This document shows, piece after piece, positions 19,556-29,329 of a stretch of DNA of 64,000 bases. Source of the stretch: Micromonospora sp. R77 (lineage in GTDB: Bacteria; Actinomycetota; Actinomycetes; Mycobacteriales; Micromonosporaceae). The notes beneath the pieces are model-generated. The model did no database searches, had not been told where the DNA came from, and was given only the letters and a program-made list of their open reading frames with translations. How positions within the stretch are numbered: position 1 is the first letter of the stretch; every line of letters begins with the position of its first letter. The stretch lies in contig NZ_JALDST010000001.1 of assembly GCF_022747945.1 (NCBI RefSeq), forward strand, positions 6,820,001-6,884,000. Reading direction: 5' to 3'. The position numbers were made by a program, and so were the translations under genes.

Positions 19556-20467
19556 CGGGACCGGTGGTCGGGGTCGACATCGGCGGCACCAAGACGGCCG
19601 CCGCGCTGGTCGACCCCGACGGGCGGGTGCGGACCCGGCGCGAGGTCCCCACCCCGCCCGGTCCGGGCCCGCGGCGGTGCTGGACGCCGCCGCGGGCCTG
19701 GCCGCGGAGCTGCTCGGCGACGCCGGCCCGGGGCCGGTCGGGGTCGGCACCGCTGGCACGGTCGACCCGGCCACCGGGACCATCCGGTACGCGACCGACA
19801 GCCTGCCCGGATGGGCCGGCACCCCGGTCGCCGACGCGTTGACCGCGCGGCTGGGCCGTCCCGTGCGGGTCACCAACGACGTGCACGCCGCGGCGCTCGG
19901 CGAGAGCTGGGCCGGCGCCGGGCAGGGCCGGGCCCACCTGCTGCTGGTGGCCGTCGGCACCGGGCTGGGCGGGGCGGTCGTCCGCGACGGCCGCGTCGAG
20001 GCCGGCGCCGGGGCGCGGCGGGCCAGCTCGGGCACCTGCCGGCCCCCGGCACCGAGCGACTGCGGTGCGGGTGCGGCCGGTACGGGCACCTGGAGGCGAT
20101 CGCCTCCGGCACCGGGCTGGCCGCCGCGTACGCCGACGTGACCGGCACCCGGGTCACCGGGCGGACCGTGGCGGACCGCGCGGCGGCCGGTGACCCGACC
20201 GCCCGGCAGGTGATCGACCGGGCCGGCGCGGTCCTCGGCGCGGCCCTGGCCGGGCTGGTCGCCGTGCTCGACCCGGAGGCCGTCCTGGTCGCCGGCGGGG
20301 CGGCCGGCGTGCTGCTGGCCGCCGCCTCGGCCGCCTATCACGCAGAGCTGCCCGGCGGCTGGGCCGGGGTGCCGCTGCGGCCCGCCGCGCTCGGCGCAAA
20401 CGCCGTGCTGGTCGGCGCCGCCCGCTTCGCCACGACGACGATCGACGACGGAGGAACCGGAGAATGA
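19552..20467 (+). pseudogene. ROK-family kinase (ManNAc kinase-like), broken by two apparent 1-base losses
   Basis: ATG 19552 begins MTGPVVGVDIGGTKTAAALVDPDG, then leaves the coherent frame near 19664. The second frame carries VLDAAAGLAAELLG, VRVTNDVHAAALGESWAGAG and VAVGTGLGGAVVRDG. Near 20015 the sequence moves to a third frame with GQLGHLPAPGTERLRCGCGRYGHLEAIASG. That stretch contains the CxCGxxGxxE zinc cluster of catalytic ROK kinases, and its frame runs on to the stop at 20467. One missing G/C at each site accounts for both shifts. Followed with a 4-base overlap by NanE, it would phosphorylate N-acetylmannosamine. If truly broken, the pathway stops at this step unless another kinase substitutes. 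Confidence 0.8.
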
Positions 20468-21162
20468 ACGTCCTCGACGAGCTGGCCGGCGGCCTGGTGG
20501 TGTCCTGCCAGCCGCTGCCCGACGAACCCGACGACCCGATGCGTGACACCTACGTCCAGGCCCGGGTCGCGGCCGCGGTGGTCCGTGGCGGCGCGGTGGC
20601 GGTGCGGGTCAACGGCCCGGACGACGTGCGGGCCGTACGCGCCGCCGTCGACGTACCGGTGATCGGGCTCCACAAGTACGGCACCGGGGACGTCTTCATC
20701 ACCCCCACCGCCGGGCACGCGCTGGATGTGGCAGCGGCCGGGGCGCAGGTCGTCGCGGTCGACGCCACCGACCGGCCCCGCCCGGACGGGCGTACGTTCG
20801 CCGACACCGTCCGGGCGATCCGCGAGCAGACCGACGCGCTGGTCCTCGCCGACGTCTCCACCACCGCCGAGGGCGTCGCCGCCGTCGAGGCCGGCGCCGA
20901 CGCCGTCGCCACCACGCTGTCCGGCTACACCCCGGCCAGCCCACCGACCGACGGGCCCGACCTCGGGCTCGTCGCGCGCCTCGCCGCACTCCTGCCCGTG
21001 CCGGTGCTGGCGGAAGGCCGGTACCGGAGCACGGAACAGATCGGCCGGGCCTTCACGGCCGGCGCCCACGCGGTGGTGATGGGCAACGCCGTCACCTCAC
21101 CACTGTGGATCACCCGCCGGCTCGTCCCGGCCACCCCCCGCGCGGCGCGCACCCGGCAGTGA
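20464..21162 (+). CDS. nanE: N-acetylmannosamine-6-phosphate 2-epimerase
   Basis: The protein has 232 residues, a TIM barrel of the NanE family. Motifs include VVSCQPLPDEPDDPM at the N-terminus, VIGLHKYGTGDVFITPT, the catalytic-lysine strand VPVIGLHKY, and AGAHAVVMGNAVTSP near the C-terminus. It converts ManNAc-6-P to GlcNAc-6-P in sialic acid or ManNAc catabolism. Its ATG overlaps the preceding ROK stop. It closes the LacI operon. No sialidase, NanA lyase, NagA or NagB is present in the window, so the source sugar is not settled. Confidence 0.9.
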   Translation: MNVLDELAGGLVVSCQPLPDEPDDPMRDTYVQARVAAAVVRGGAVAVRVNGPDDVRAVRAAVDVPVIGLHKYGTGDVFITPTAGHALDVAAAGAQVVAVDATDRPRPDGRTFADTVRAIREQTDALVLADVSTTAEGVAAVEAGADAVATTLSGYTPASPPTDGPDLGLVARLAALLPVPVLAEGRYRSTEQIGRAFTAGAHAVVMGNAVTSPLWITRRLVPATPRAARTRQ

Positions 21163-21250
21163 AGGCGGCACCGGGACGCCACTCACCCGGTTCACCGTCG
21201 CTGGAAACCGGATGGCCGACGCGGCCCGGTCGGTGCGATGATCGACATCC

Positions 21251-21379
21251 GGGTCGCTAGCTCAACTGGCTAGAGCATTCGACTGAGTAGCGCGTCCGCT
21301 CTCCACCCCGGTGGTCATGGGGGCGCTTCCTTCTCCTAGTTGGATCGAAAGGTTCGGGGTTCGAGTCCCCGGCGACCCA
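21251..21379 (+). ncRNA. tRNA-like RNA with a ~55-nt insertion in the anticodon loop
   Basis: The sequence folds as a near-perfect tRNA body. The acceptor stem is GGGTCGC (21251-21257) with GCGACCC (21372-21378). The D arm is GCTC/GAGC (21260-21263, 21273-21276). The anticodon stem is TTCGA (21278-21282) with TCGAA (21345-21349). The T arm is CGGGG-TTCGAGT-CCCCG (21355-21371), followed by a discriminator A. Instead of a 7-base anticodon loop there are 62 bases (21283-21344). These contain a stem AGCGC (21289-21293) with GCGCT (21323-21327) and an inner CCAC/GTGG hairpin. The length is too short for a group I intron. No anticodon can be assigned and no CCA end is encoded. It ends 56 bases before the TerD-domain gene. 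It could be a tRNA mimic analogous to the tRNA-like module of bacterial Y RNAs, or a decayed tRNA. Confidence 0.7.
21283..21334 (+). repeat. conserved insert motif, copy A (inside the tRNA-like anticodon loop)
   Basis: It begins CTGAGTAG, then has a small hairpin, then CATGGGGGCGCTTCCTTCT at 21316-21334. The same order of elements recurs at 23588-23631. The two 19-mers match at 17 positions and the octamers are identical. Confidence 0.65.
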
Positions 21380-21435
21380 CCGCGCCGCGGCTGCAGGCCG
21401 GCACCGGCCGCAGTCGAGGTGGATCGGAGGACCAC

Positions 21436-23595
21436 GTGCTCGAGAAGCTGATCATCCAGAGGACCCTGCGCGTGCCGGCGGGCACCGGCGCGGCCGGGGA
21501 CGGCACCCGGGTGGCCCGGCAACTGGATGCGGCGCTGCTCGATGTCGGGTTCTCCGCGTCGCGGGCCCTGCTGGAGCACATCGGCACGCTGGCCCCCGCG
21601 CCGGCGATGGACCTCGCCGCCACGGTCGTCTCGGCGGTACGCGAACTGGTCGGCGACCACGTCCGGCACAATGCCTATTTCATCGGATTCCCGGACCAGG
21701 TGCCGGACACCGTCGAGTTCTGGGCCGACCGGCTCCGGGCGGCCGTACTCAGCGGTGGCGGCACGACGACCGACGCGCAGCTGCGGGACGCCGTCGCGTC
21801 GGGTGGGGTGAACCTGCTCGACCTGCCGGGCTACGGGACCTACCAGCACAGCTGGGCCGACCTGCTGGCCGCGCACGACGCCCTGATCACCACGGCCGGT
21901 GACCGGGTGACCCTGCTGCACCTCGGCGACACCCCCGAGGTGGAGGCGGCGCGCCTCTATCTGGCCCTGGCCGGCAGCGCCACCCCGCTCGGTGAGGCGG
22001 ACCTGGCGGTCCTCAGCGAGCTCGCCGTCGCCTGTCTGGACGACACGCAGCCGACCGGCATCCCGGTACGGGAGAACCGCGCGGTGCTCAACGGCATCCG
22101 GCTGGTCCTCGGGCGGCCGCTCGTCGCCGTGGACACGACGACCGACGTCCTGCGCGTCGCCTGCCAGGCCTCCGGTGGGGACGTCTCACTCCTGACACCC
22201 ACGAGGTTCCGGGCCTTCCGGCGCCCGGAGCGGCGGGTGCTGCTGGCCGCGCTGGACGACGTCGTCGGCGGGAACCGCGGCAAGCTCGGCGACGTCGCGC
22301 GTTACGCGGAGCGGTGGAAGCGACTCGGGGAGCGGCTGCACCCGCACGAGTACGGTCAGTGGCCGCACGCCCGGGAGGTGTTCGCGGTCGCGCGCGGCGA
22401 GCGCCGGGTACCCACCCTCGCCGGACGCGCCGAGGCGGCGATCCGCGCCGGTGCCGTCGGCCCGGCCGCGTCGGTGCTGTCGGCCGCGCCGGGCCTGCTC
22501 CTGCGCTCCGCGGACCGGCTTCTGCGCACGGCGTCGGCGCCGGAGCGAGCCGCTGTGGTCGACGCGGTCGCCGCGGCCCTGGGCTCGGCGTCGGGCCGGG
22601 TGCTTCTCTCCCTGCGGGAGCATGTCGACAACCGGCTGGCACCCGCGTCCGCGCGGATGTACGTCGGCCGTTCGCGGCGCGCGTGGGTCGGCCCGGACCG
22701 GCGCCCGCCCCTGCCCGCCGAGCTGGTGGCCGAACTGTCGTCGCTGCTCGACGCCGAGATCGGCGCGCGGCTGCCGGAGCCGCAGCGACCGTTGGTGGTG
22801 GACCCGGCGGTGCTCGACGTCGCGCTGCCGCTGTCCGGCAAGGCGGCCGAAGGTGGATTCGCGGTGCTGCCGAGGGGCTCGCGGGCGTCGGTGTCCGGTG
22901 AGGTGCTGCGCTTCTTCACGTACTGGCGTCAGCGCGACCGTCGCACCGACTACGACCTGTCGGTGCTGCTGCTCGACGACGAGTTCCACAGTGCGGGCCA
23001 GGTGTCCTGGACGAACTACCGCCACGACGGCGTGGTGCACTCGGGCGACATCACCGACGCGAGACACGGTGCGACCGAGTTCATCGACGTGCCCTTGACG
23101 GTACGCGGGCACTACGTCGTACCACAGGTGTACATCTATGCGGGCGAGTCGTTCGACGACGTCGCCGAGTCGATGTTCGGCTACCAGACCCGGACGCCGG
23201 AGCAGCGCGGTGCGCCGTTCGACGCGCGGACCGTGCGGGCGCGTTCGCACCTGCGAGGCCAGGGCCGGGTGGCGCTGCCGATGGTGTTCGCCAAGGGCGA
23301 GCAAGGCTGGCAGGCCGTGTGGCTGCACCTCTACCTGCGGGGCAGGCCGTCGTTCAACCGGGTGGAGGACAACCGGTCCACCACTGCCGACCGGGTGCGG
23401 GCACTGGTGCAGCGGCGCTACCTCACCATGTCCTACCTGGTCGACCGGTGGCGCGCCCGGGCCGACGTGGTGATGTGGGACGGCCGCCTGCCGGACGAGC
23501 CGGTCACGTTCATCGGCATCGACGCGCCCGAGGGTCTGCCGGAAGGATCAGTCACGTATACATTGGACCGGCTCAGCGAGCTGATCCCTGAGTAG
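21436..23595 (+). CDS. TerD-domain protein with a long N-terminal helical region
   Basis: The protein has 719 residues and starts at GTG 21436, five bases after GGAGG. An upstream in-frame ATG at 21340 lies inside the tRNA-like T-arm side and is rejected. The N-terminal ~480 residues are mostly helical, with a distinctive HNAYFIGFPDQVPDTVEFW near residue 77. The C-terminal part (about 490-660) is a TerD-like beta-sandwich: YDLSVLLLDDEF, DGVVHSGDITDARHGATEF, then VVPQVYIYAGESF. TerD domains bind calcium and occur in tellurite and phage-stress clusters and in predicted RNA-damage systems. No membrane segment or catalytic motif is visible. The stop codon TAG lies inside repeat copy B. Function unknown; the linked tRNA-like RNA is a candidate partner. 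Confidence 0.85.
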   Translation: MLEKLIIQRTLRVPAGTGAAGDGTRVARQLDAALLDVGFSASRALLEHIGTLAPAPAMDLAATVVSAVRELVGDHVRHNAYFIGFPDQVPDTVEFWADRLRAAVLSGGGTTTDAQLRDAVASGGVNLLDLPGYGTYQHSWADLLAAHDALITTAGDRVTLLHLGDTPEVEAARLYLALAGSATPLGEADLAVLSELAVACLDDTQPTGIPVRENRAVLNGIRLVLGRPLVAVDTTTDVLRVACQASGGDVSLLTPTRFRAFRRPERRVLLAALDDVVGGNRGKLGDVARYAERWKRLGERLHPHEYGQWPHAREVFAVARGERRVPTLAGRAEAAIRAGAVGPAASVLSAAPGLLLRSADRLLRTASAPERAAVVDAVAAALGSASGRVLLSLREHVDNRLAPASARMYVGRSRRAWVGPDRRPPLPAELVAELSSLLDAEIGARLPEPQRPLVVDPAVLDVALPLSGKAAEGGFAVLPRGSRASVSGEVLRFFTYWRQRDRRTDYDLSVLLLDDEFHSAGQVSWTNYRHDGVVHSGDITDARHGATEFIDVPLTVRGHYVVPQVYIYAGESFDDVAESMFGYQTRTPEQRGAPFDARTVRARSHLRGQGRVALPMVFAKGEQGWQAVWLHLYLRGRPSFNRVEDNRSTTADRVRALVQRRYLTMSYLVDRWRARADVVMWDGRLPDEPVTFIGIDAPEGLPEGSVTYTLDRLSELIPE

Positions 23596-23631
23596 TCGGC
23601 GAGAGCCGAGGCCATGTGGGCGCTTCCTGCT
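23588..23631 (+). repeat. conserved insert motif, copy B (overlapping the TerD stop codon)
   Basis: CTGAGTAG (23588-23595, whose last three bases are the stop codon) is followed by TCGGC-GAGA-GCCGA (23596-23609), a 5-bp stem with a GNRA loop. CATGTGGGCGCTTCCTGCT follows at 23613-23631. GAGTAG (23590-23595) can pair with CTATTC (23630-23635) to close the whole element as a stem. Just downstream, CCG-TTCGATT-CGG (23635-23647) looks like a shortened tRNA T-arm. It is the partner of copy A in the tRNA-like loop. Confidence 0.6.
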
Positions 23632-23649
23632 ATTCCGTTCGATTCGGTA

Positions 23650-23667
23650 CCTCCGCGGACGCGGAGG
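23650..23667 (+). terminator. hairpin downstream of the TerD gene
   Basis: CCTCCGC (23650-23656) pairs with GCGGAGG (23661-23667) around a GGAC loop. It lies between the converging TerD and molybdopterin oxidoreductase genes, so it may end transcription. No T-tract is present. Confidence 0.5.
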
Positions 23668-23756
23668 ATCTGGTGTTCAGCGCCCGCGCTCTCCTCGGCC
23701 CTCGCCGGTGAGCCATCGGGCTCGTGCGGCCACCTCCTGACGACGGGCCCGCCGGT

Positions 23757-25976
23757 TCAGGCGGGTTCCACGCGGACCGGGATGCCGTTGAGCACGGTGT
23801 TGCCGGAGAGCGGGTCGACCGCCGTGGAGTCGGCGAGCACGTTGCTGTTGACGCCGGGATGTGCCCGGGCCACGGACTGCCGGGTGCCCGGCACGTCGTG
23901 GCCCCACCCGTGCGGCAGGCTGACCACGCCGGGCATGGTGTCGGCGGTCGGTTCGACGGCCACCACGAGTGACCCGACCCGCGAGGAGACCCGCGCGGCG
24001 TCCCCGGTGGACAGCCCGAGCTTCGCCGCGTCCTCGGGGTGGATCTGCAGGGTGCAGCGGTCCCGCCCCTTCACCAACGCCGGCACGTTGTGCATCCAGC
24101 TGTTGTTCGAACGCAGGTGCCGGCGGCCGACGAGGACGAAGCCCTCCGGCGGCGCGTCCCGGGCGTCGCGGAGCCGGGCCACGTCGGCGGCGATCGGCGG
24201 CGGGCAGAGCTCGACGGTGCCGCTCGGCGTCCGCAGCACCTCCGGCAGGCGGGACCGCAGCGGCCCGAGGTCGATGCCGTGGGGGTGGTCGAGGAGCCGG
24301 GTCAGGCAGAGGCCGTCCGGTCGCCGCCCGAACAGGTCGCCGTACGGGCCGCGGCGCAGCCGCGCGTCGAGGAGGCGTTCGGCGGGCCGCTCCCCCACGA
24401 CCAGCGCCCGCAGCTCGGCCGCCGGCCGGTCCAGCTCCTCCGCCGCCTCGGCGAGCACCTGGCCGAGCAGCTGCTCGTGCAGGCCCTGCGGGTCGGCGTC
24501 GGTGCCCTGCCCGGCGGCGATCAGGGTGAGCCGGGCGAGGATGTCGCACTCGTCGAGGCTGTCGGGCTCCAGGGGAAGCGCGGGCGGCGAATAGCTGGCC
24601 ACGTTCCGCACCGCCAGGGTGAGGAACGCGAAGTCGTAATGTCCGGCCCGGGCCGGGTCGGGCGGCGGGAGCACCACGTCGGCGTGCCGGGTGGTCTCGT
24701 TCAGGTAGGGGTCGACGCTGACCATGAAGTCGAGCGAGGCGAGCGCCCGGTCCAGCCGTTCGCTGTTCGCGGTGGAGAGCACCGGGTTGCCGGCGACCGT
24801 GACCAGCGCCCGGACCTGACCCGGTCCCGGCGTGGTGATCTCGTCGGCCAGCGTGGCGACCGGCAGCTCACCCTTCACCTCCGGCAGGCCCCGCACCCGG
24901 CTGGTCCAGCGTCCGGTGCGGAACCCCTTGCCCGGACCGGCGGCGCGGGTGCGCTGGTGGGCGGCGAGCGGGAACATCGCCCCGCCCGGCCGGTCCAGAT
25001 TGCCGGTCAGCACGTTGACCACGTCGACCAGCCAGCTCGTCAGGGTGCCGAAGGCGACCGTGCTGGTGCCGAGGCGCCCGTACACGGCGGCGGTGGGGGC
25101 GGCGACCAGCTCGCGGGCGAGACGGCGGATGCGCGGCGCGGGCACCGCGCACCGGTCGGCGACCCGCTCCGGGGCGAACGCCGAGGCCAGCTCCCGCACC
25201 TCGTCGACGCCGGTGACGTGCGCCGCCAGCGGGCCGAGCCGCACCAGGTCCTCGGCGAAGAGGGTGTGCACGACGGCGAAGAGCAGCAGCGCGTCGGTGC
25301 CGGGCCGGATCGGCAGGTGCTCGTCCGCGGCGGCGGCGGTCCGGGTGCGCCGGGGGTCGACCACCAGGAACCGGCCGCCGCGCGCCTGCAACGCCCGGAG
25401 CCGGCCGGGGAAGTCGGGGGCGGTGCAGAGGCTGCCGTTGGACTCCCAGGGGTTCGCGCCGAGCAGCACCAGCAGGTCGGTGCGGTCCAGGTCGGGCACC
25501 GGGATGGCGTTCGGGTCGCCGTAGAGGTAGCCCGAGGAGACGTGCTTGGGCATCTGGTCGACGGTGCTGGCGGAGAAGACGTTGCGGGTGCCGAGCGCCC
25601 GGACCAGCGGGCCCACGTAGAGGCCGCCGGCCATCGTGTGCACGTTCGGGTTGCCCAGGTAGACGGCGACCGCGTCCCGACCGCCGGCACGGGCGGCGCC
25701 CAGTCCCGCCTCGACGGCGGCGAAGGCTTCGGCCCAGCCGACCTCGCGCAGCGTGCCGTCGACCCGCAGCAGCGGCCGGCGCAGCCGGTCCGGATCGTCG
25801 AGCAGCTGCGGGAACGCCGCACCCTTCGGGCAGACGAAGCCGTGGCTGAACACGTGCTCCCGGTCGCCGCGGGCGTGGGTCACCCGGTCGTCGGTGATGG
25901 TCAGGGTCAGGCCGCAGGTGGCCTCGCAGAGCGGACAGGTGCGGTACGCGGTGCGCGTCGCGGACGTCTCCGGCAT
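23757..25976 (-). CDS. molybdopterin oxidoreductase (formate dehydrogenase/nitrate reductase superfamily)
   Basis: The protein has 739 residues. The N-terminal [4Fe-4S] site CPLCEATCGLTLT is completed by FVCPKG about 40 residues in. Mo-bis-MGD contacts follow (LLVLLGANPWESNGSL, LVTVAGNPVLSTANSERLDRAL). The C-terminal dinucleotide-binding domain includes SNNSWMHNVPALVKG and VVSLPHGWGHDVPGTRQ. It starts at ATG 25976; an upstream in-frame start at 26042 lacks a ribosome binding site. There is no Tat signal, so it is cytoplasmic. It resembles the stand-alone actinobacterial oxidoreductases labelled as formate dehydrogenase-like. There is no partner subunit nearby and the substrate is unknown. Confidence 0.9.
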   Translation of the reverse strand: MPETSATRTAYRTCPLCEATCGLTLTITDDRVTHARGDREHVFSHGFVCPKGAAFPQLLDDPDRLRRPLLRVDGTLREVGWAEAFAAVEAGLGAARAGGRDAVAVYLGNPNVHTMAGGLYVGPLVRALGTRNVFSASTVDQMPKHVSSGYLYGDPNAIPVPDLDRTDLLVLLGANPWESNGSLCTAPDFPGRLRALQARGGRFLVVDPRRTRTAAAADEHLPIRPGTDALLLFAVVHTLFAEDLVRLGPLAAHVTGVDEVRELASAFAPERVADRCAVPAPRIRRLARELVAAPTAAVYGRLGTSTVAFGTLTSWLVDVVNVLTGNLDRPGGAMFPLAAHQRTRAAGPGKGFRTGRWTSRVRGLPEVKGELPVATLADEITTPGPGQVRALVTVAGNPVLSTANSERLDRALASLDFMVSVDPYLNETTRHADVVLPPPDPARAGHYDFAFLTLAVRNVASYSPPALPLEPDSLDECDILARLTLIAAGQGTDADPQGLHEQLLGQVLAEAAEELDRPAAELRALVVGERPAERLLDARLRRGPYGDLFGRRPDGLCLTRLLDHPHGIDLGPLRSRLPEVLRTPSGTVELCPPPIAADVARLRDARDAPPEGFVLVGRRHLRSNNSWMHNVPALVKGRDRCTLQIHPEDAAKLGLSTGDAARVSSRVGSLVVAVEPTADTMPGVVSLPHGWGHDVPGTRQSVARAHPGVNSNVLADSTAVDPLSGNTVLNGIPVRVEPA

Positions 25977-26114
25977 CGATGGCCCCTTCCCGTCGGGAAA
26001 CCGACTGGTCGGTATGGTGGCACGTCGACGCCGCACTGTCACCCCCGCACCGGATCGGCACCGCGCGCACGGACGGCGGTCGCACCGCCCGGCCGCCGCG
26101 TCGTCGGCGTACCG

Positions 26115-27128: not shown

Positions 27129-27518
27129 CCCATGACCCACCGCCACGACGGCTCCCTGACGACAGCTTCAGGCGACGGAGAGACGCCGGTGGTCCGACGG
27201 CAGTCGGCTCGGTGCCCGAGACCGTCCTGACCAGGCGTCTTCACATCCCGCCATTCAAGGTGTGGGTTAGCTCACAGTCAAGACCTGCGCCGCCACAACT
27301 GTCCGACCAGGACAGAATTCCACCGAAGGTGCCGGCAAAACTCACGTACGGTGACTGAGTCGTGCGGATGCGGCCCGAAAACGGCTTGCCGCGGGCGGTG
27401 GGCCCGGCGAGAGTGGGGTCATGACGCTCTGACGGACACCAGCCCGATCTCCGAAGGCTCCCGGCGCCGACCCGCGCCGTCGCGCCGTCCGTCCCCGCTG
27501 CCCGATGAGAGAGCGTCC
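27129..27518. promoter_or_regulatory. divergent control region between GGDEF and RtcB-PrfH
   Basis: No convincing gene is seen. It holds the likely GGDEF promoter (TTGACT/TTGAAT, minus strand, 27253-27281). It also holds a perfect inverted repeat CTGTCC-GACCA-GGACAG at 27299-27315 that could be an operator for either side. The open frame that runs upstream of RtcB from 27351 has non-coding-like composition and is not taken as part of the protein. Confidence 0.5.
27299..27315. promoter_or_regulatory. inverted repeat, candidate operator upstream of RtcB-PrfH
   Basis: CTGTCC and GGACAG form a perfect 6-bp inverted repeat with a 5-base spacer, about 200 bases before the RtcB start. No RtcR-like sigma-54 activator is present, so control must differ from the enterobacterial rtc operon. 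The binding factor is unknown. Confidence 0.4.
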
Positions 27519-28703
27519 TTGTCTGCACGTCACTTCCGGCCGGAGTCCCTGCCGCAGTCCGACCCGGCCACCGTCACCGTCTTCGCCTCCCCCACGAGCT
27601 GGATCGAGTCCGACGCCGTCGACCAGTGCCACCGGGTGGCCGCCCTCGACGGCATGATCCACGTCGCCGGCATGCCGGACCTGCACCCCGGCAAGGGGGC
27701 ACCGATCGGAGCCGCCATGGCGTCGACCGTGCTGTACCCGTTCCTGGTGGGCTCCGACATCGGGTGCGGCATCGCCGTGTTCCCGATCAACCTCAGGCCG
27801 GCCGTACCGGAGCGGCTCGCCGCGCGGTTCCCCGATCTCGACCGCGCGCTGGACCCCGAGCGGGACGCCGACGACCCGGCCTGGTCCGTCGTGGACGGCG
27901 AGGTTCCCGCCGGTCACCTCGACGGCCTGGGTACGGTCGGCCGCGGAAACCACTTCGCCGAGCTGGCGCGGATCGGGACGGTTCTCGACCCGGACCACGC
28001 GGACCGTCTCGGGCTCACCGCCGATCACCTCGTGCTCATCGTCCACAGCGGTTCCCGGGGACTGGGGGAACGGATCCTGCGGGAGCACACCGAGCGCCAC
28101 GGCGCCGGCGCCGCCCCCGATCCCACGGCCTACCTGGCCAGGCACGACGCCGCCGTACGCTGGGGATCGCTCAACCGGCGGCTGATGGCCGCCCGGATCG
28201 CCCACGCGCTGGGCGCCGAACCGACCGCGCCGATCGTCGACCAGTGCCACAACCTGGTCGAGGTCCGCGACGGGGTCTACCTGCACCGCAAGGGCGCGGC
28301 ACCGGGTGACGGCCGCGACGTGCTGGTCGCCGGCACACGGGGTACCCCCTCGTACCTGGTCGCCGGCCACGCCGGTCCGGGCGCCAACCACTCGGTCGCG
28401 CACGGCGCGGGGCGGAAGATGTCCCGCGCGGACGCACTGCGCCGGGGCCGGGCCAAGCACACCGTCGAGGAGCTGCGTCGTACGCCGGTGGGGTCGGTGG
28501 TGGTGTGCGGTGACCGGCAACTGCTCTTCGAGGAGGCCCCGACGGCCTACAAGCGCATCGAGCAGGTGATCGCCGACCTCGTCGACCACGGCCTGGCCAC
28601 CCCCGTGGCCACCACGGTCCCCCTGGTCACCTACAAGACGGCCGACCCGGGGCCGGCGCCTCGACGGGACCGCCGGGAGCGACGTGGACGAGGCCGGTCA
28701 TGA
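27519..28703 (+). CDS. RtcB-family RNA ligase (RtcB2 type paired with PrfH)
   Basis: RtcB joins RNA ends bearing 2',3'-cyclic phosphate and 5'-OH using GTP and Mn2+. The metal and guanylation residues are in place: GMPDLHPGKGAPIGAA near residue 50, the cysteine of SDIGCGI near 80, GNHF near 143, HSGSRGLGE near 176, and the guanylated histidine of AHGAGRKMSR near 294. With about 394 residues it is the short RtcB2 form. The best start is TTG 27519 (LSARHFRPESLPQ), because the in-frame sequence upstream looks non-coding; no strong ribosome binding site decides this. It overlaps PrfH by four bases. RtcB-PrfH pairs are known from work on ribosomes cut in the decoding centre. Confidence 0.9.
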   Translation: MSARHFRPESLPQSDPATVTVFASPTSWIESDAVDQCHRVAALDGMIHVAGMPDLHPGKGAPIGAAMASTVLYPFLVGSDIGCGIAVFPINLRPAVPERLAARFPDLDRALDPERDADDPAWSVVDGEVPAGHLDGLGTVGRGNHFAELARIGTVLDPDHADRLGLTADHLVLIVHSGSRGLGERILREHTERHGAGAAPDPTAYLARHDAAVRWGSLNRRLMAARIAHALGAEPTAPIVDQCHNLVEVRDGVYLHRKGAAPGDGRDVLVAGTRGTPSYLVAGHAGPGANHSVAHGAGRKMSRADALRRGRAKHTVEELRRTPVGSVVVCGDRQLLFEEAPTAYKRIEQVIADLVDHGLATPVATTVPLVTYKTADPGPAPRRDRRERRGRGRS

Positions 28704-29329
28704 TCGTCCACCTGCTCGTGTCGGCAGGGCGTGGCCCGCGCGAGTGCGCCTGGGCGCTGGCCCGGATCCTGCCCCGTCTGGAGGCCGACGCCGCCCGGCA
28801 GCAGCTGACCACCCAGCGGGTGGAGACCGTTCCCGGCGACCGGCCCGGCACCCACCGATCGGTCCTGCTCCGGATCTCCGGAGCAGGATCCGGGGCGTTC
28901 GCCGAGTCGTGGAGCGGGACATTGTGCTGGCAGGCCCCGAGCCCCTACCGGACCGGAGCCGGCCGGAAGAACTGGTACGTCACCGCCCGGCCGTGCCAGG
29001 TCGACACCCTGCGGACCACGTTCCGGGAGACGGATGTGGACATCGTCGCCTGCCGCACCGGGGGGCCCGGCGGTCAACACCGGAACAAGGCCAGCACGGC
29101 GGTACGGGCGACCCACCGGCCCTCGGGAACCGTCGTCGTGGTCGACACGGAACGGCAGTTCGGCCTCAATCGCCGGATCGCCCTCGACCTGCTGCGACAG
29201 CGTCTCGACGAGGGCGACGAGGTGGCCGGGCGGGCGGTGACGGCCGCCCGCCGGCGCCTGCACGACGAGCTCGTACGCGGCGACCCGGTCCGGGTGTTCA
29301 CGCCGGCGCCGCGAAGCAGCACACGCTGA
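28700..29329 (+). CDS. prfH: peptide chain release factor H (PrfH)
   Basis: The protein has 209 residues and starts at the ATG that overlaps the RtcB stop (ATGA). The catalytic loop reads CRTGGPGGQHRNKASTAVRATH, with the GGQ tripeptide that hydrolyses peptidyl-tRNA. It lacks the RF1/RF2 codon-recognition domain, as expected for PrfH. In known systems PrfH releases the nascent chain from ribosomes damaged in 16S rRNA, and the partner RtcB reseals the break. Strict coupling of the two genes here supports the same role. No toxin gene is adjacent. Confidence 0.92.
   Translation: MIVHLLVSAGRGPRECAWALARILPRLEADAARQQLTTQRVETVPGDRPGTHRSVLLRISGAGSGAFAESWSGTLCWQAPSPYRTGAGRKNWYVTARPCQVDTLRTTFRETDVDIVACRTGGPGGQHRNKASTAVRATHRPSGTVVVVDTERQFGLNRRIALDLLRQRLDEGDEVAGRAVTAARRRLHDELVRGDPVRVFTPAPRSSTR

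Follow-up and report, generated by a model that had tools for sequence, protein, structure and literature searches.

A tRNA-scaffold RNA with a permuted core beside a TerD-like protein gene of Micromonospora, compared with bacterial Y RNAs

Described tRNA-like RNAs and the Micromonospora locus

Transfer-messenger RNA (tmRNA) joins a transfer RNA (tRNA)-like domain to another module, the permuted tRNA genes of algae and archaea place the T-arm half before the D-arm half, and Burroughs and Aravind reportedly described in 2016 a tRNA-like RNA next to SPFH/Band-7 scaffold proteins, i.e., a protein family other than the one considered here, in RNA repair neighbourhoods. The closest parallel is YrlA, whose basal stem binds Rsr, the Ro60 ortholog, and whose tRNA-like domain binds PNPase (PMC8394870, as excerpted); this tRNA domain is circularly permuted (PMC11472068, as excerpted), and in some bacteria rsr and Y RNA genes lie in RNA repair operons controlled by RtcR (PMC7790460, as excerpted). 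Here, we analyzed a 64,000-nucleotide stretch of the Micromonospora sp. R77 genome (contig NZ_JALDST010000001.1, positions 6,820,001 to 6,884,000; hereafter the window), in which a tRNA-shaped RNA (21251-21379) precedes the gene of a 719-amino-acid (aa) TerD-like protein (21436-23595) and a second RNA (23595-23710), all on the plus strand. The interval 21204-23710 very probably represents a self-contained ~2.5-kb cassette of one protein and two cognate noncoding RNAs that would encode a ribonucleoprotein, this strength applying to the whole explanation of a ribonucleoprotein cassette, a core-bound protein and a Y-RNA-like mode of working.

The layout of YrlA, a protein-binding basal stem with a permuted tRNA-like module, recurs in four phage RNAs described below and, in part, in the window's second RNA, which has a T-arm and a D-loop-like element. 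By contrast, 21251-21379 is permuted in the opposite sense, with a normal, unpermuted tRNA and a permuted core, and the putative partner, a TerD/SCO0854-like protein, shows no significant similarity to TROVE. Among Rfam families, only tRNA reached gathering level in the window, and no Y RNA model matched 21150-23800 at E up to 10 or any of the 7 and 14 homolog loci scanned. Unlike tmRNA, 21251-21379 has all four tRNA arms, and a tmRNA is absent from the ARAGORN output for the window, no tag frame having been looked for. The half order of the algal and archaeal genes is shared by the phage RNAs, whereas here the anticodon side is joined to a core, without implying a tRNA product.

No description of these RNAs was found among the literature matches listed, subscription literature lying outside the scope of the search, and no paper naming SCO0854 or MXAN_6230 was found in the literature searched. 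As excerpted, a jumbo phage survey reports TerD genes and, apart from these, TROVE accompanied by a tRNA-like partner (PMC7824862), the presence of Rsr and Y RNAs in phages is suggested in a Listeria phage paper (PMC12282133), and a Rhodococcus phage paper reports tRNAs and RtcB in the Weasels2 cluster, its excerpts mentioning TerD and noncoding nowhere (PMC13313380).

The tRNA-scaffold RNA, its insert and the second RNA

The Rfam tRNA family RF00005 matches 21251-21379 at 54 bits against a gathering score of 29 (cmscan), and model R1 scores it at 153 bits. The acceptor, D, anticodon and T stems of this cloverleaf are paired in all 41 distinct sequences of the tRNA-scaffold RNA, the window's included, which bears out both the coordinates and the four-stem pairing proposed in an initial annotation made from the window alone. 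These RNAs were gathered by a pattern demanding parts of the tRNA ends, so that end conservation is partly by construction; the insert was no part of the pattern. Instead of a seven-base loop with a readable anticodon, the anticodon stem closes on a 62-nucleotide (nt) loop (21283-21344) with the internal pairing 21289-21293/21323-21327 and the CCAC/GTGG hairpin that had been predicted there, both conserved among the aligned RNAs, while the loop segments flanking the anticodon stem differ in length and sequence between relatives. A DNA search placed tRNA-Lys nearest to the tRNA body within the same genome. Just upstream, the element 21204-21250, delimited by DNA similarity, probably serves as the promoter of the tRNA-scaffold RNA: it comprises GAAACnnGATnGCC followed, immediately 5' of the RNA, by GTGCGATGATCGACATC, and by eye both precede the RNA in many relatives among the upstream regions of the 41 RNAs.

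The insert has counterparts that contain no tRNA part at all. A hairpin RNA with the same core adjoins each of 19 paralog or outgroup loci of the downstream gene (18 with exact CTTCCTTCT, one with CTTCCTCCT), upstream in 14 RING-type relatives (RING tested in three) and downstream in five others. "Upstream" was judged at these loci by distance from the stop codon, gene starts not having been determined; at one of them (L072) the script's reading frame stops early, so the motif is given as 493 past that stop. In these stand-alone hairpins, 13 of 16 pairs have changed on both sides, a count reached by none of 500 shuffles; the structure was drawn from the same alignment as the pair counts, and slid versions of it reach at most 8. 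Their strand order is 5' basal stem, CUCC or CCA, GCU-ending helix, UUCCUUCU and loop, followed by AGC helix, pyrimidine-rich loop and basal stem. The tRNA-scaffold RNA presents the order AGC helix, CUCU, basal stem, loop, basal stem, UCA, GCU-ending helix and UUCCUUCU, which in the window reads AGCGCG-UCCG, CUCU, CCAC-loop-GUGG, UCA, UGGGG-GCGCU and single-stranded UCCUUCU (21287-21335).

A covariance model with swapped strands (R3) was built from 17 of the 19 stand-alone RNAs, none of them a tRNA RNA, with L163 and L164 omitted as identical to L162 after trimming. Within the window, R3 detected the insert at 42.4 bits (E 6.2e-9; runner-up 10 bits), and nothing but the insert (E 6.9e-7) matched across the 7.1-Mb genome at E up to 1. 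When given 19 loci of relatives, the model matched all 19 at 31.8-45.4 bits, the next score being 17.8. Since a strand-swapped model of stand-alone RNAs picks out the insert alone in a whole genome, the insert is, as judged by sequence and pairing, a circular permutation of the stand-alone core. The initial annotation had pointed to covariation within the insert as a check, and its helices do covary: the core helix (alignment columns 41-50 with 74-84) is paired in 98.1% of cells, and three of its nine pairs have changed on both sides.

Downstream, a Shine-Dalgarno GGAGG (21426-21430, by sequence reading) precedes the protein gene, whose GTG start at 21436 lies 56 bases past the RNA, as first annotated, and whose stop is at 23595. 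The TerD label given to this gene proved right for the C-terminal part of the product (~residues 490-630): hhalign of an 18-member family profile against four TerD-like open reading frames (ORFs) of the same genome, three of them PF02342 matches, gave a probability of 95.5% and E 1.5e-8 there, while Pfam stayed silent in hmmscan (no match at E up to 5), i.e., the TerD domain is recognized by the former method and not by the latter. The profile of the MXAN_6230/SCO0854 RING family (NF041916) matches the protein at 335 bits, best over residues 324-658, against a cut-off of 600, and a Prok-RING_4 finger is present near the N-terminus of the three RING-type paralogs tested and absent from the window's protein. 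By these profile comparisons, the 719-aa protein is a relative of that RING family and not a member. A search of solved structures with the protein alignment returned only nanobody-type matches (E 0.6 and 1.6), and no PF05731 (TROVE) match occurs in the genome. A divergent TROVE identity for the protein was considered and set aside as not significant, a lead only; one alignment, the only one in one hhalign comparison and the second of three in another, places KYRQREGWTHRDLLRLSHPE of TROVE over RYAERWKRLGERLHPHE (E 0.17-0.3). As a side observation, TROVE-bearing and ortholog-bearing genomes do not overlap among the first 37 genus genomes, numbers too small to carry meaning.

The second RNA (23595-23710; model R2, 122.7 bits) starts at the stop codon of the protein gene and appears Y-RNA-like, with a basal stem, a core and a mimic of the tRNA elbow in its loop. 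The initial annotation had taken this region for a second copy of the insert; the likeness is genuine over 23610-23631 (19 of 22 identical, blastn E 0.03-0.07 within the window; also found by the motif pattern), but that segment is the 5' core strand of a second conserved RNA. In an alignment of 38 distinct sequences, it is followed by a T-arm mimic CCG-UUCGAUU-CGG (23635-23647), a second hairpin within the loop (23651-23666; pair counts, columns 60-73), a D-loop-like CUGGU (23670-23674) that may contact the T loop, and the 3' core strand AGC...CUCU-CC (23679-23694; alignment and pair counts). The conserved single strand is UUCCUGCU in the window's second RNA, to be compared with UUCCUUCU. Overall, 98.4% of cells are paired and five of 25 pairs have changed on both sides.

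Occurrence of the cassette and of core RNAs elsewhere

Across 151 genomes sampled from the genus, 37 match the protein at E 1e-20, namely 28 with an ortholog of at least 81% identity (one of them truncated, G034) and nine with distant paralogs only. The tRNA-scaffold RNA scores above 100 bits in all 28 ortholog genomes, where the best ordinary tRNA in the same listing reaches 75.7 bits; among the other 123 genomes it exceeds 100 bits in five and reaches 84.7 bits in one more. By eye, two of these orphan copies look intact (G099 and G005), one has a shortened anticodon arm (G058), one an acceptor mismatch (G082), one lacks the 5' half (G089) and one stops at a contig end (G084; L145-L150 for all six). 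Model R2 matches 28 of the 151 genomes, 27 of them with an ortholog and one weakly at 59 bits, so that the second RNA is missing from a single ortholog genome, the one with the truncated gene. There (L033, G034) the ortholog is cut to residues 1-314, with the upstream RNA kept and the downstream RNA not detected.

The position of the RNAs relative to the gene was counted over loci, some genomes entering twice. The tRNA-scaffold RNA lies within ~310 bases 5' of the start codon in 46 of 59 loci; the 13 upstream regions without it by pattern comprise one paralog (L034), three Lentzea and nine loci of five genomes, and in all five of these genomes the RNA is located elsewhere, 3-24 kb off or on another contig. 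An ordinary tRNA in its place, which by the initial annotation would have spoken against the proposed RNA, was found by ARAGORN before no ortholog in 46 upstream regions, the only ordinary tRNA there being a tRNA-Cys before the paralog in L034. On the other side, 54 of 57 full-length loci have the core motif at most 100 nt from where the protein match ends.

Next, we compared window positions 20001-25000 with 31 named loci from Micromonospora, Salinispora, Catellatospora, Dactylosporangium, Actinoplanes, Asanoa, Jidongwangia, Allokutzneria, Lentzea and a metagenome-assembled genome. DNA similarity begins at 21196-21251 in 25 of the 31 and ends at 23697-23733 in 23 of the 31. None of the window's neighbours that were compared (transporter protein, ROK, NanE, 761-aa gene, GGDEF, RtcB and PrfH) was found in the fetched flanks of these loci, which span up to 10 kb and are shorter in some; an AMP-binding protein gives a weak flank match (33-35%) in two. 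Because the limits of similarity coincide without common neighbour genes, the island 21204-23710 appears to move as a unit. The RtcB2-PrfH pair at 27351-29329 on the plus strand, 3.8 kb past the gene (TIGR03073, PRK09588 and TIGR03072 over cut-off), belongs to a known type of RNA repair and ribosome rescue operon; as a functional partner it was rejected, being present in 0 of 31 other loci, and is regarded as a chance neighbour. RtcB-PrfH operons with accessory genes are reported, as excerpted, in a release factor survey (PMC6514570).

Beyond these relatives, tblastn was run with two queries; plasmid records with relatives of the protein numbered 26 and 31, and phage records 6 and 11. Core-like RNAs adjoin the gene in 12 of 14 homologs fetched from such records, recognized mostly through the motif pattern and visual inspection: Streptomyces (two loci), Variovorax (two copies), Niallia (two), Deinococcus (three, by eye), a 485-kb uncultured phage (three), phage Weasels2, Vibrio (two), XacN1 (two), a faecal phage contig (two), RcXuper and RpAliso. 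Some homologs carry two or three tandem copies, upstream or downstream. A pairing script found helices of at least seven pairs for L175, L176 and L180, whereas copies in L178, L181, L172 and the Deinococcus locus (L170) were assessed visually, with an additional pairing check for those that bear a tRNA; a nine-pair match within an annotated Hymenobacter gene (L179) and one directly after the RpAliso gene were not counted.

In RcXuper, RpAliso (two copies) and Weasels2, the converse permutation was observed, with the core outside and a circularly permuted tRNA inside. The loop of these phage RNAs runs T-arm, acceptor 3' strand, short link, acceptor 5' strand and D-arm, and all four pair 5/5 in the T-stem and 7/7 in the acceptor (for the acceptor, up to seven offsets were tried and the best one taken); in one RpAliso copy, an encoded ACCA follows the acceptor. 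Upon rotation, three of them are read by ARAGORN as a tRNA with a 41-56 nt "intron", a layout matching the window's RNA, although ARAGORN takes its input as circular and so reported unrotated phage RNAs across the join too, and the anticodons that it assigns (Val, Pyl, SeC) are meaningless. The initial annotation had foreseen neither this reverse permutation, nor that of the insert, nor the flanking of the gene by two core RNAs.

Two further arrangements may be mentioned here. In the Ruegeria and Rhodobacter phages, core RNAs form arrays, and some of these RNAs hold complete circularly permuted tRNAs; the records leave them unannotated (L181:380-2215 and L178:2300-3880). In Variovorax (L168:1002-6700), the family gene and two tandem core RNAs adjoin the gene of the RNA repair activator, rtcR, a place taken by rsr and Y RNAs in Salmonella-type operons.

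Proposed mechanism and competing explanations

Given this distribution, the tRNA-shaped RNA probably serves the TerD-family protein as Y RNAs serve Ro60, rather than serving translation. That it works like a Y RNA is well supported; that it is one is not supported, since neither a TROVE domain nor a Y RNA model match is detectable. In the mechanism that we propose, each RNA would consist of a core for the protein and a tRNA-like part. The core, expected to bind the protein, would comprise two helices, the basal one and one that ends in GCU/AGC, together with an asymmetric internal loop (YCA / CUCU) and the conserved single strand UUCCUUCU, and would most likely tether the TerD-family protein in the fashion of bacterial Y RNAs. 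In 21251-21379, a whole tRNA body would bear the permuted core instead of an anticodon loop, so that this RNA could not decode as it stands. Its tRNA-like part may dock a partner that recognises tRNA, whether exonuclease, repair ligase or attacking anticodon nuclease, recruiting or excluding it, or may gate the protein. Both RNAs would be transcribed as stable RNAs, and the ribonucleoprotein may act in RNA damage or decay. The initial annotation had suggested a tRNA-mimic guide or scaffold: the scaffold half survives in Y-RNA-like form, with the RNA in 28 of 28 ortholog genomes, covarying helices and the core beside distant homologs, whereas the guide half was dropped, as no variable targeting segment was seen.

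If correct, this interpretation would assign a specific noncoding RNA partner to the TerD/SCO0854-like proteins, for which the records examined carry only the annotations hypothetical, TerD-family or RING protein. It would also imply that tRNA mimicry linked to a protein scaffold has emerged, or been put to new use, beyond the detectable Ro60 family. The converse permutations offer a natural experiment on which parts need to stay joined. Being small and present in Micromonospora and Salinispora among others, the cassette yields clear predictions on binding and processing.

Several observations weigh against it. Five to six genomes retain the tRNA-scaffold RNA without the ortholog, two of them in intact-looking form, and therefore the RNA is not strictly tied to the protein. 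The downstream motif is absent in three of the 57 full-length loci (L053, L055 and L056), and no credible core RNA lies within 700 bp of the phage SCTP-2 and Hymenobacter homologs. The second RNA's tally of doubly changed pairs is reached in 3 of 500 shuffles. The protein family is sporadic, with an NF041916 match at E 1e-20 in 6 of 296 genomes sampled from the phylum, and hhalign of the family to nine TROVE ORFs from relatives gave no better than E 0.17-0.42.

The strongest competitor keeps the structure and changes the partner: the RNA would lure or sense anticodon nucleases or other toxins that target tRNA, and the TerD-family protein would be the output. Such a decoy or sensor role would fit an entire tRNA body whose anticodon arm is altered, and would also fit homologs beside rtcR (Variovorax), near RtcB (phage Weasels2) and near an RNA ligase gene (Vibrio), and several homologs lie within phage stretches bearing tRNA genes. 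However, the normal anticodon loop is gone, and other RNAs of the family have no tRNA part, which leaves the decoy an improbable option.

A cis-acting leader that regulates the TerD-family gene, i.e., an attenuator or an autoregulatory binding site, appears less probable still. The proximity of the RNA to the start codon, 56 bases in the window and at most ~310 in 46 of 59 loci, fits such a leader, but five ortholog genomes have the RNA at a distance of 3-24 kb or on a different contig, the gene is followed by the second RNA, and tandem copies occur upstream or downstream of some homologs. Autoregulation may nevertheless accompany a role in trans.

Could 21251-21379 instead be an ordinary tRNA gene whose short intron is excised and whose halves are rejoined, e.g., by the nearby RtcB ligase, into a working tRNA? 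ARAGORN calls no tRNA here when introns are disallowed and a tRNA-Gln(ttg) with a 55-nt intron when they are allowed, and the RtcB-PrfH pair is at hand. Yet the anticodon called in relatives shifts among Gln, Arg, Thr, His, Pro, Asn and Leu, leaving no evident mature anticodon; the loop is variable where it adjoins the anticodon stem; homology links the insert to stand-alone RNAs free of tRNA; no group I or other self-splicing intron family was found by cmscan at the locus, the insert being only ~55 nt; and RtcB and PrfH occur in none of the 31 other loci within the flanks fetched, up to 10 kb. We consider this explanation very unlikely. A decayed tRNA or integration-site scar of a mobile island, for which the genome-to-genome change of neighbours and some damaged-looking orphan copies could be cited, can practically be dismissed, as the stems are kept with covariation (the tRNA ends partly selected by the collecting pattern) and the insert matches an independent RNA model.

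Extending the Y-RNA-like interpretation, we tentatively propose a second, Ro60-independent class of Y-RNA-like ribonucleoproteins built on TerD/SCO0854-like proteins in at least three phyla (Actinomycetota, Pseudomonadota and Bacillota, with Deinococcota by eye) and in phages; that some of its RNAs are two-module rings with the ring as the working form is part of this proposal, which is conceivable but falls short of probable. The ring, made of core and tRNA, would be opened at the acceptor end in Micromonosporaceae and relatives or at the core end in phages, and this exchange of ends suggests that a joined, possibly nicked or ligated, ring may be the working form. Enzymes processing tRNA ends and RNA ligases would then belong to the system.

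Two minor features complete the description. A plus-strand ORF at 23614-24594 was considered as a second TerD gene and rejected; it is probably no gene at all, codon-position GC content fitting instead the minus-strand ORF 23757-26042 (761 aa), which converges on the cassette. Finally, M. okii (L036:4590-4740) has an extra TTCCTT motif with AGCGCGTCC downstream, perhaps a divergent core RNA located away from the gene.
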